A stretch of 64,000 bases of DNA from Sulfuricaulis limicola (lineage in GTDB: Bacteria > Pseudomonadota > Gammaproteobacteria > Acidiferrobacterales > Sulfurifustaceae), in NCBI RefSeq assembly GCF_002355735.1, contig NZ_AP014879.1, positions 1 to 64,000 on the forward strand. The letters run 5' to 3'. The notes under the pieces were generated by a model that was not told the origin of the DNA, made no database searches, and saw only the letters and a program-made list of their open reading frames with translations. Both the position numbers and the translations under genes were made by a program. This document shows, piece by piece, positions 45,164 to 58,650 of the stretch; the first letter of the stretch is position 1, and each line of letters begins with the position of its first letter.

Positions 45164-46597
45164 ATGACCGACCGTTACGATCTGGTCGTCATCGGCGCCG
45201 GTCCGGCGGGCTACACCGCGGCCATCCGCGCGGCCCAGCTCGGCCTCAAGGTGGCCTGCGTGGACGACTGGCGCGGCCCGGCCGGCGAGCCCGCGCTCGG
45301 CGGCACCTGCCTCAACGCCGGCTGCATCCCGTCCAAGGCGCTGCTCGAAACCTCCGAGCTTTTTGTGCAGGCGCGCGACCACGGCCCGGCGTACGGGCTC
45401 AGGTTCAAGGAACTGTCCCTCGATCTCGCCGCCATGCAGGCGCACAAGAACAAGGTGGTGTCGGATCTCACGCGCGGCATCGCCACGCTGTTCAAGGCCC
45501 ACGGCGTGACCTGGATTCCGGGCCGCGGGAAACTGCTGCCGAAGAATCTCGTGGAGGTCTCGGGAAAGTCTGCTCAGCAACTCGAAGCCGAACACGTGAT
45601 CCTCGCCAGCGGCTCGACGCCGGTGAACCTCAAGAGCGCGCCCTTCGACGGGCAACGCATCGTGGATTCGCAGGCGGCGCTCGAATTCCAGGAAGTGCCG
45701 CGGCGTCTCGGGATCATCGGCGCCGGCGTGATCGGGCTCGAGCTCGGGAGCGTGTGGCGCCGCCTCGGCGCGGAGGTGGTGCTGCTCGAGGCGCAGGAGA
45801 CTTTCCTGTCCATGGCCGACGAGCAGGTGGCGCGCGAGGCGCTCAAGCAGTTCACCGCGCAGCGGCTCGATATCCGCCTGGGTTCACGGGTGCTGGGCAG
45901 CAAGATTGAGAAAGACGGCGTCACGGTGCGCTACCAGGACAAGAGCGGCGAACACCAGGAAAGCGTGGACCGGCTGATTGTCGCCGTCGGACGGCGTCCC
46001 AACACCGACGGTCTCGTGAGCGACGGCACCCGGCTGCTGCTGGACGAGTGGGGTTTCGTGCATGTCGATGAGCACTGTCGCACCAATCTTCCCAACGTTC
46101 ATGCCGTGGGTGACCTGGTGCGCGGACCGATGCTGGCGCACAAGGGCATGGAGGAAGGCGTGATGGTGGCCGAGCGCATCGCCGGGCGCGCCACCGCGGT
46201 GAATTATGACGTGGTGCCGTCGGTGATATATACCCAGCCCGAGATCGCCTGGGTCGGCAAGACCGAGCAGGCGCTGAAGGCCGCGGGCACGGCCTGTCGC
46301 GCCGGTGTGTTTCCCTTCGCCGCCAACGGGCGCGCCAAGGCCATGGGCGAGGCCGCCGGTTTCATCAAGATTCTCGCCGATGCCGGTACCGACCGCGTGC
46401 TTGGCGTGCACCTGGTTGGCCCGAACTGTTCCGAGCTGGTGGCGCCGGCGGCGCTTGCGATGTCCTTCGGCGCCTCGAACGAGGACATCATGCTCACCAT
46501 GTTTGCCCACCCGACACTTTCGGAAGCCTTGCACGAGGCGTCGCTGGCCGTCGCCGGCCACGCGATTCATCTGGCGCAGCCGCGGCGTTCGAAATAA
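45164..46597 (+). CDS. lpdA: Dihydrolipoyl dehydrogenase (E3)
   Basis: E3 reoxidises the lipoyl group of E2 with NAD+, through FAD and a redox disulfide. The 477-aa protein has the FAD-binding VVIGAGPAGYTAAIRAAQLG near the start, and the redox pair in GGTCLNAGCIPSKALL. The NAD-binding GIIGAGVIGLELGSVWRRLG lies near residue 185. The active-site His-Glu is in AHPTLSEALHEA near 450. It follows sucB by 2 bases and is the last gene of the operon. Confidence 0.97.
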   Translation: MTDRYDLVVIGAGPAGYTAAIRAAQLGLKVACVDDWRGPAGEPALGGTCLNAGCIPSKALLETSELFVQARDHGPAYGLRFKELSLDLAAMQAHKNKVVSDLTRGIATLFKAHGVTWIPGRGKLLPKNLVEVSGKSAQQLEAEHVILASGSTPVNLKSAPFDGQRIVDSQAALEFQEVPRRLGIIGAGVIGLELGSVWRRLGAEVVLLEAQETFLSMADEQVAREALKQFTAQRLDIRLGSRVLGSKIEKDGVTVRYQDKSGEHQESVDRLIVAVGRRPNTDGLVSDGTRLLLDEWGFVHVDEHCRTNLPNVHAVGDLVRGPMLAHKGMEEGVMVAERIAGRATAVNYDVVPSVIYTQPEIAWVGKTEQALKAAGTACRAGVFPFAANGRAKAMGEAAGFIKILADAGTDRVLGVHLVGPNCSELVAPAALAMSFGASNEDIMLTMFAHPTLSEALHEASLAVAGHAIHLAQPRRSK

Positions 46598-46633
46598 GGC
46601 CGACGCAGTTAGGTTCGAATACCCGGAACATCA

Positions 46634-46671
46634 GTCAAACAAAAAGCCCCAAAAGGGGCCTTTTGTTTGAC
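46634..46671 (+). terminator. Rho-independent terminator of the sucA-sucB-lpdA operon
   Basis: AGTCAAACAAAAAGCCCC, loop AAAA, then GGGGCCTTTTGTTTGACT make a long near-perfect stem ending in a T-rich stretch. It sits 37 bases after lpdA. Because A-tracts lie on both sides it may act in both directions. Confidence 0.85.
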
Positions 46672-46687
46672 TGGCGCGCCCTAGAGG
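46672..46687 (-). repeat. Broken 3' end of tRNA-Arg(CCG)
   Basis: TGGCGCGCCCTAGAGG is identical to bases 46803-46818 of the intact tRNA-Arg gene, covering the CCA end, the acceptor 3' strand and part of the T stem. The rest of the tRNA is absent; a repeat arm follows at once. Confidence 0.85.
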
Positions 46688-46802
46688 GTGAGGCGGAGTA
46701 GTCACGGAAGTCCGGTGGACTTCCGTGCCGCCGAACGCCCGCACAGGGACGTGCGGGCCGGGGTTCAGCGAAACCACAACGCCACGCCAGGGATGGCATG
46801 TA
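46688..46802 (-). repeat. Left arm of long inverted repeat around tRNA-Arg
   Basis: Read on the minus strand, this arm contains CATGCCATCCCTGGCG, then a GTTCGGCGGCACGG block. The perfect palindrome CGGAAGTCC-ACC-GGACTTCCG (46725-46705) follows, then CTACTCCGCCTCACC. The same order of blocks is found on the plus strand at 46960-47150. A third partial copy is at 58601-58650. Confidence 0.75.
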
Positions 46803-46879
46803 TGGCGCGCCCTAGAGGATTCGAACCTCTGACCTTCAGCGTCGGAGGCTGACGCTCTATCCAGCTGAGCTAAGGGCGC
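46803..46879 (-). tRNA. tRNA-Arg(CCG)
   Basis: On the minus strand the 77-nt sequence folds into a standard class I cloverleaf. The acceptor is GCGCCCT/AGGGCGC and the D stem is GCTC/GAGC. The anticodon stem is TCAGC/GCTGA with loop CTCCGAC, so the anticodon is CCG. The T arm is AGAGG-TTCGAAT-CCTCT, the discriminator is G, and the CCA end is encoded. Anticodon CCG reads the arginine codon CGG. The gene is bracketed by inverted repeats and by fragments of the same tRNA. Confidence 0.95.
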
Positions 46880-46959
46880 ATGATCAACAATGGTAACACT
46901 TGAAATCCCGGCCTCTGAAATACTTCGTGCCAGCGGCTGACGTTCGTTGTCGCAACATG

Positions 46960-47150
46960 TGCATGCCGTCCCTGGCGCGACTCCTCAGCCAGTGTTTAAC
47001 ACCGGCCCGGCCTTCGCGCTGCGCTCCTGCTTCGCGCGAAGTCCAGCCCGGCCATCCCTGGCCGGGCGTTCGCCGCGTTCGCGGCTCACCCTTGGCCGGG
47101 CGCTCAGCGGCGCGGAAGTCCACTGGACTTCCGCGACTGCCCCGCTTCGC
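46960..47150 (+). repeat. Right arm of long inverted repeat around tRNA-Arg
   Basis: This arm repeats, in the opposite orientation, the blocks of the left arm: TGCATGCCGTCCCTGGCGCG at 46960-46979, ACACCGGCCCGG near 47000, and GCGCTCAGCGGCGCGG. The palindrome CGGAAGTCC-ACT-GGACTTCCG (47113-47133) and CTGCCCCGCTTCGCC follow. It is about 75 bases longer than the left arm because of extra GGCCGGGCG-type sequence in the middle. No gene is seen in it. Confidence 0.7.
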
Positions 47151-47170
47151 CCAGCTGAGCTAAGGGCGCA
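47151..47170 (-). repeat. Broken 5' end of tRNA-Arg(CCG)
   Basis: CCAGCTGAGCTAAGGGCGCA, 20 bases, is identical to 46861-46880, the acceptor 5' strand and D arm of the intact tRNA-Arg. It directly abuts the end of the right repeat arm. About 220 bases after it, before cytochrome c5, hold no gene that I can support. Confidence 0.85.
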
Positions 47171-47392
47171 TAAGCGGCAATAAATAAACTAATAGGGTTA
47201 TGAATTGATCTGAGTCATTTTCACCGTGGAACGGGGACGCAAGAATACCTGTCATAGCAGGCAGCGTCCATCTGTCGCACCCCAAGGGGCTTTTTCAGGA
47301 GGAATATTAGGTTATACTGATCCGGCAAATTCAGGGCTCCACCATTCCGGTGGGGGAAAAACTTCAACATTGAAATTGTGTAAAGGTAAATC

Positions 47393-47905
47393 ATGACTGA
47401 TCGTGCATTTTGGAAATCTTTTTCGGGTCTGGTTCTCGCGCTGGTGGCGTTGACGATCGTTCTCTTCATCGTGGCGCAGATGGTCGGCGGCAAGCCGGCG
47501 AAGACGGTCGAGACCACGGCGGATGCCAAGGCCATCGCCGAGCGCATCAAGCCGGTGGGTGAAGTGACTGTCGGCGCGGCGCCGGCGGAAAGAGTCGCTT
47601 CCTCCAGTTCGGTGATGGACGCCATCATTCCCGCCGCGAACGCCGCGGGCGCAGACAAGGGCAAGGCCACGTACGATGCCTCTTGCATGGCCTGTCATGC
47701 GGCCGGTGTTGCCGGTGCGCCGAAGTTTGGCGACAAGGCTGCCTGGGCCCCGCGCATCGCCCAGGGCGCCGACACGCTCCACACCCATGCTCTCAAGGGT
47801 TTCCAGGGCAAGGCCGGCATGATGCCGCCCAAGGGTGGCAACATGAGCCTGAAGGACGAAGACGTGATGGCTGCCGTGGATTACATGGTCAACGCAGCGA
47901 AGTAA
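47393..47905 (+). CDS. Cytochrome c5-family c-type cytochrome
   Basis: This 170-aa protein has an N-terminal membrane anchor, FSGLVLALVALTIVLFIVAQM (residues 10-30), and a short linker. A single class I cytochrome c domain follows, with the heme motif CMACH (YDASCMACHAAGVAGAPKFG) near residues 97-101. The Met ligand is in KAGMMPPKGGNMS near 143. It resembles cytochrome c5, an electron carrier facing the periplasm. A strong terminator follows. Confidence 0.93.
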   Translation: MTDRAFWKSFSGLVLALVALTIVLFIVAQMVGGKPAKTVETTADAKAIAERIKPVGEVTVGAAPAERVASSSSVMDAIIPAANAAGADKGKATYDASCMACHAAGVAGAPKFGDKAAWAPRIAQGADTLHTHALKGFQGKAGMMPPKGGNMSLKDEDVMAAVDYMVNAAK

Positions 47906-58507: not shown

Positions 58508-58600
58508 GGGAATGTCCGATATTGTTTGTCGTCTCAGCAATGTCTTGCGTTTTGCCCTCTCCCCTTGTTCCCGCCGGGGTGCGGAAAAATCATGCGCACC

Positions 58601-58650
58601 CGTTCGGCGGGAGAAAGGTCCACCGGACCTTTCTCTGTTTCCGCCTCACC
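58601..58650 (+). repeat. Third copy of the tRNA-Arg-flanking repeat family
   Basis: CGTTCGGCGG, then GAGAAAGGTCC-ACC-GGACCTTTCTC (58611-58635), then CCGCCTCACC (58641-58650) match in order the outer part of the inverted repeats around tRNA-Arg at 46688-46745 and 47104-47150. The palindrome sequence differs but stays self-complementary, so the hairpin, not the sequence, is conserved. Confidence 0.7.

Follow-up and report, generated by a model that had tools for sequence, protein, structure and literature searches.

The terminal repeats of the Escherichia coli tyrT and tyrV genes, together with RtT RNA (RF00391), are the closest described counterpart of the locus reported here. Their units lie beside the tRNA gene, consist of linked hairpins, are repeated in tandem and contain the cognate tRNA 3' end; the E. 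coli units end in AATCCTTCCCCCACCACCA (19 nt). A tandem GA has been reported for the tyrT repeat RNA (PMC8250186), and a similarity between rtT and BIMEs in enterobacteria was noted earlier (PMC2965389). RtT matches were obtained in 33 of 185 gammaproteobacterial genomes, and most of the fetched RtT loci (L322-L351) had a cognate 18-19-nt tRNA 3' end at tRNA-Gln, tRNA-Ser or tRNA-Tyr, in many families; the view of RtT as a product of tyrT looks too narrow.

The window (the whole stretch analysed, 64,000 nucleotides of Sulfuricaulis limicola contig NZ_AP014879.1) also has a unit that ends in the cognate tRNA 3' end (16 nt), but this piece starts from C61, whereas RtT units have their junction at 58/59, within the T-loop, and contain a T-arm in inverted orientation. 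The window elements have theirs at C61 or G19 and, unlike RtT, strike the tRNA 5' end as well. The GA that flanks the basal helix of the element on both sides recalls the tandem GA of the tyrT repeat RNA. The RtT covariance model gave no match in 46500-47400 up to E 5, the element's own model (R1) gave no match to RtT loci, and no known Rfam family was obtained for the window arms. In relatives, units joined at the T-loop matched RtT at E 5.9e-5, 0.0011 and 0.032, with scores below the gathering score.

REP sequences and BIMEs are likewise short, non-coding, dispersed between genes and built of several hairpins, and the element shares with them a conserved palindromic hairpin in many copies; it differs in being joined to GG at a fixed point within tRNA and 5S genes, where the target is duplicated. 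No mobility enzyme was linked to the element, which contains no ORF. When 20 Y1_Tnp loci of relatives were searched with the arms, 19 lacked them and one lay near a weak match, and a link to RAYT (Y1) transposases was rejected; genome G219 has arrays and no Y1_Tnp match. Integrative elements and prophages that target tRNAs with a tyrosine integrase also duplicate the tRNA 3' end, keep the tRNA intact and cross over near the T-stem, and in E. coli nt 61 of argW is where the CPS-53 prophage feature begins. In contrast to these, the window elements measure 115-271 nt, have no integrase, use the tRNA 5' end too and leave duplications of variable length. MITEs resemble the element in being small, non-coding and present in many copies with a duplicated target, but its two ends (end I, GTGAGGCGG; end II, GGATGGCATGTA) are unrelated by inspection, so that there are no terminal inverted repeats, and its duplications at tRNAs are not constant in length (12-97 nt). 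No description of elements joined at the D-loop or at C61 was found in the literature searched, by sequence or by the topic of tRNA fragments, a result that is not proof of absence.

Anatomy of the tRNA-Arg(CCG) locus

The intact tRNA-Arg(CCG) lies on the minus strand at 46803-46879 (ARAGORN; Rfam RF00005, 70 bits) and is the sole CCG tRNA among 43 tRNAs found in the 2.86-Mb single-contig genome. Read along the minus strand, the locus consists of a promoter-like block, a leader, tRNA nt 1-19, a 271-nt stretch with one element, the intact tRNA, an element of 115 nt, the final 16 nt of the tRNA and a terminator.

On the 3' side, element copy 1 (type A) occupies 46688-46802 on the plus strand (R1 75 bits, E 6.4e-17), with end I at 46688, end II at 46802 and the first hairpin at 46688-46739. 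Its junctions recur at the Ser-GGA, Thr-TGT, Arg-TCT, Glu-CTC and Pro-GGG tRNAs. Beyond it, at 46672-46687 on the minus strand, stand the displaced last 16 nt of the tRNA, from C61 to CCA, which are identical to 46803-46818 (16/16) and form the outer copy of a 16-nt duplication. The native rho-independent terminator, a 19-bp inverted repeat at 46632-46673 on the minus strand, has its homologue directly after the CCA in the empty-site relatives G001 and G005; element A now separates the intact tRNA from it.

On the 5' side, copy 2 (type C) occupies 46880-47150 on the minus strand (R1 69.9 bits, E 1.3e-15). Its end I, GCGAAGCGG, is at 47150 and its first hairpin at 47150-47099; the distal part closes with a conserved tail, ...GTGTTACCATTG, which adjoins the tRNA leader and is also found in G006, G007 and G008. 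The displaced first 19 nt of the tRNA, up to G19 in the D-loop, follow at 47151-47169 on the minus strand and match 46861-46879 in 19 of 19 positions. They lie inside the outer copy of a 21-nt duplication (47151-47171 versus 46861-46881), which extends 2 bases into the leader. A preliminary description had counted 20 bases of tRNA 5' end at 47151-47170; 19 of these belong to the tRNA, and the base at 47170 is leader. Farther upstream, a block on the minus strand at 47239-47271, ATGGACGC...GGTATTCTTGC, recurs, conserved in place and sequence, ahead of the lone tRNA in both G001 and G005. This block, now upstream of the 5' fragment, is probably the native tRNA promoter, judging from its conservation; a consensus scan of either strand found no promoter in 46600-47400.

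The left junction reads GG followed by GTGAGGCGG, and the right junction CCGCTTCGC followed by CC, which on the other strand is GG followed by GCGAAGCGG. Both fragments thus abut the same repeat end, as the preliminary description had it, and its cage of inverted arms with copies of the tRNA ends outside is borne out by the identities given above, the arms stopping exactly at the tRNA fragments. Its estimate of inverted ends of about 115-190 bases holds for the orientation; the arms are unequal (115 nt on the left, 271 nt on the right), with a common part of about 63-65 nt at 81% identity and short shared hairpins. Its reading that no transposase or integrase lies inside also stands, none being found among the ORFs between 46672 and 47170. 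When folded, the cage forms a single large hairpin that carries the tRNA at its tip (z -12.2). R1 holds no tRNA sequence, and it was built from copies that include both window elements at the tRNA; because both are in its alignment, their scores are not independent evidence, and those of other sites are.

The first hairpin opens with G[T/C/A]GA and closes with GA. Between them, a basal helix of 5 bp leads through a bulge of about 6 nt to a helix of 11 bp, which is capped by a loop that reads AGT/GGT or TTAAC; the returning strands of the two helices precede the final GA. The basal helix occurs as GGCGG/CCGCC, GCCGG/CCGGC, AGCGG/CCGCT and GACGG/CCGTC. Of two gapless alignments, one kept pairing in 99.2% of cells, with 46 two-sided changes, and the other in 99.6%, with 41; the covariation score was reached by no shuffle, and both helices of the hairpin were backed by two-sided changes. 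One-sided G-U states are nearly absent from the helices, and the palindrome is therefore read as copied at the DNA level. Further hairpins follow the first, many with CANGGAYG loops, and at 46688-47150 and related loci most of the hairpin loops have this sequence. This motif resembles the CsrA/RsmA consensus, and the genome encodes CsrA in one csrA gene at 1776114-1776269, adjoining tRNA-Ser(GCT). A role as a CsrA sponge is unlikely as a common RNA function, because the type A motif is on the strand antisense to the tRNA transcript.

Recurrence and junctions in related genomes

The preliminary description had proposed a comparison with sister strains for an empty site. Such a site was found in G001, G004 and G005, where a lone tRNA-Arg(CCG) without arms stands beside the same cytochrome gene; the genomes compared are different species, not strains, and several are draft metagenome assemblies with contigs that end in these repeats. 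In G001 and G005 the terminator homologous to that of the window directly follows the tRNA. In-silico excision of both elements with one copy of each duplication leaves a single tRNA that does not differ from the intact one; its leader and terminator align with the single-tRNA loci of G001 and G005. Since excision restores one perfect tRNA with conserved flanks, which is the sister state, two separate insertions of one hairpin element into one resident tRNA are indicated, and the two fragments are not the halves of a second tRNA, as had been supposed. Other relatives vary at the same tRNA: a T-loop-split copy lies downstream in G002 and G007, a decayed copy upstream and a T-loop-split copy downstream in G006, two 5' units upstream and a T-loop unit downstream in G008, and a C61 unit downstream in G013.

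A search of this genome for the arms at other tRNAs, also proposed in the preliminary description, gave copies at about 30-40 sites, Ser-GGA, Thr-TGT and others among them; of 30 R1 matches, 5 are no more than 150 bp away from a tRNA (P about 8e-7). Three arrangements were met. Type A, in which CCA is followed by TACATGCC...CCGCCTCAC and then by C61...CCA, occurs at Arg-CCG and Ser-GGA, nested at Glu-CTC, and Thr-TGT and Arg-TCT have remnants of it. In type C, seen at Arg-CCG and Thr-TGT, the native leader and nt 1-19 are followed by GYGA... and then by the intact tRNA. Type B, a T-loop split between TTCGA and AATCC, occurs at Ser-CGA and Glu-CTC. One-sided insertions are common (Ser-GGA, Thr-TGT, Lys-CTT, Pro-GGG). 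The element hairpin was found in 19 of 20 genomes of the family, with up to 48 copies each, and surveys of 42, 42 and 31 tRNAs in G006, G011 and G008 gave many more cases, including Phe, Lys, Gln and Pro. At tRNA-Ser(TGA) of G011 (L293), a hairpin stands in the anticodon loop of the upstream copy, and about 50 nt of upstream sequence is duplicated.

R1 matched 19 of the 185 gammaproteobacterial genomes, this one included. In about ten of the 18 others, fetched matches stand at tRNA junctions, for example AGCTCAGTTGG followed by GTGAGGCGG, and the best matches in unrelated families are often at tRNA D-loop junctions (Arg, Thr, Phe, Trp and others). In the distant genome G134, tRNA-Arg(CCG) is again enclosed by an insertion at either end, with duplications of 25 and 97 nt. 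G075 has about seven tandem units of about 145 nt upstream of a tRNA with a CAT anticodon, each starting with the 5' end of that tRNA (L391, 1480-2530), and further units downstream. In G211, two tandem 210-nt units lie at the 3' side of a 5S rRNA gene, which was recognised by eye from its sequence (L404, 1380-1930; CACATGGGG followed by GCGAGCCGG); stable RNA genes besides tRNA are therefore hit as well. Because these loci were fetched as matches, the frequencies for the class are minimum values and do not come from an unbiased sample.

Junctions were counted in 103 non-redundant copies collected by the hairpin pattern alone, with neither a tRNA nor GG required. GG preceded 94 of them. The 12 bases before the element end were repeated 40-500 nt downstream in 44 of the 103, as against 56 of 3000 random points (1.9%). 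This excess, and the recurrence of displaced tRNA ends at many tRNAs, exclude chance as the source of the fragments in the window. Among 27 junctions in annotated intact tRNAs, 10 were at nt 18/19, 14 at the edge of T-loop and T-stem (positions 61/62, or 76 in a long-arm tRNA-Ser), and the other three at nt 30 (2) and nt 58 (1). The duplication has a fixed end, at the GG before GTGA or GCGA, and its other end gives the variation in length at tRNAs noted above. The remaining 59 copies, most of them away from tRNAs, had no direct duplication, for which reason the duplication is possibly a selected outcome and not a fixed part of insertion. Long duplications in G011 and G013 take in part of the element, so that some of them represent later amplification of units.

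Origin of the repeats

We consider it probable, at roughly two chances in three, that a short non-coding multi-hairpin element was inserted twice, independently, at the two ends of the resident tRNA-Arg(CCG). This reading draws on the anatomy, the empty site, the recurrence, the fixed junctions, the variable duplication length and the conserved hairpin. The fixed end I joins a GG in the target. On the sense strand this is G18-G19 of the D-loop, which the element follows; on the antisense strand it is the GG complementary to C61-C62, with the junction at C61. The sequence from a variable point up to that GG is duplicated on the far side of the element. A complete tRNA is therefore rebuilt, and what stays behind by the native terminator or promoter is a 3' piece of 16 nt or a 5' piece of 19 nt. 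The duplication may arise together with the insertion, and only those insertions that rebuild the single-copy tRNA would survive. Transcription may run through the whole unit, starting at the native promoter and stopping at the native terminator, and ordinary 5' and 3' tRNA processing could remove the element, since the cage folds with the tRNA at its tip between the promoter-like block and the terminator. Tandem arrays would grow when direct repeats recombine with each other. A course of insertion that duplicates the target, then such recombination and selection for an intact tRNA, fits the one fixed junction, the one variable end, the rebuilt gene and the tandem units that share the duplicated piece.

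Part of the preliminary description survives, in that repeats were inserted into a tRNA-Arg gene, but the single composite element that it had put first, with inverted ends and an intact tRNA of its own entering a second tRNA-Arg gene, is barely credible. Inverted arms and outer tRNA pieces that abut the same repeat end would suit it; the fragments (nt 1-19 and 62-77), however, fall short of a tRNA, so that 42 nt would have to be lost, and removal of the insertions leaves exactly one tRNA. A composite transposon has two copies that move the enclosed segment as a unit, and such a structure carrying a tRNA was rejected on the unequal, diverged arms, the separate duplication at each arm (16 nt at the 3' end, 21 nt at the 5' end) and the many one-sided cases. 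The other origin that it had offered was tandem tRNA copies broken by repeats; a history of this kind, in which ancestral copies were broken by elements with no special preference for tRNAs and then decayed, is quite improbable. In its favour are near-complete broken copies in some relatives (Ser-CGA of G000, 71 nt; Ser-GGA and Ser-TGA in G011) and, upstream in G006, a tRNA-like stretch of full length that has decayed. It is not supported at the tRNA-Arg(CCG) locus of the window, because end II directly abuts the CCA and, as in most type A and type C cases, a second tRNA has left no other half behind. Conserved element ends abut the tRNA terminus at several tRNAs (TACATGCC or a close variant right after the CCA), unrelated families share the same fixed junction positions, tRNAs have more copies near them than expected, and single-tRNA relatives suggest that the fixed junctions occur where the tRNA was never duplicated.

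Hairpin-rich spacers might also grow without any mobile element, by replication slippage or template switching at palindromes that copies the neighbouring tRNA end. This is unlikely. The tandem arrays of 145-215-nt units at tRNA and 5S genes agree with it, as do helix changes that are almost always two-sided with very few G-U states, which are expected if one arm of a palindrome templates the other; but end I is precise, and the element is joined to GG by this same end at dozens of non-tRNA sites, so that it does move or spread. If a reverse transcriptase copied the RNA of the element by target priming from a nick after GG, a precise junction with a variable end would be explained, and one reverse transcriptase is encoded in G000 and three in G011. 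This route is nevertheless very unlikely, as the helices look copied at the DNA level, and a requirement for such an enzyme was rejected on the lack of an RVT_1 match in the insertion-bearing genomes G006 (99% complete), G008 and G013.

Recurrence at many tRNAs and one 5S rRNA gene across the Gammaproteobacteria points to a little-described kind of mobile repeat whose targets are essential RNA genes, which it leaves unbroken. Most of the invaded tRNAs are single-copy and presumably essential, and recurrent invasion at two precise positions with the gene rebuilt is therefore an unusual safe-site strategy. That the element belongs to a class-wide family of non-coding mobile hairpins, which join GG at loops of stable RNAs by one fixed junction, leave one variable duplication and rebuild the gene, with RtT as one branch, is conceivable, though we would hold this only tentatively; the loops concerned would be the tRNA D-loop, the T-loop edge and possibly the anticodon arm, besides 5S rRNA. 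The recurrent invasion gives the E. coli tyrT/RtT repeats a general context and would account for partial tRNA copies in many genomes. The natural series of empty, one-sided, caged and tandem-array loci offers material for working out the insertion mechanism.

Copies away from tRNA genes

Among the matches listed from plasmid and phage collections, only the tRNA portion of the query was covered. The window has a third copy of the first hairpin at 58599-58649 on the minus strand, away from tRNAs (R1 53.5 bits, E 2.1e-11), with palindromic sequence of the CTCCCGC/GCGGGAG type beside end I. The draft genome G123 has 19 hairpin copies (L384, L402), many with identical scores and several at contig ends, which suggests recent spread. 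Several copies outside tRNAs (L002, L009, L010, L012-L014, L016, L025 and L026) are flanked, after the GG, by repeats like GACAGGATTAACAGG or CGCCAAGACGCCAAGG, which form inverted pairs at several of these sites.
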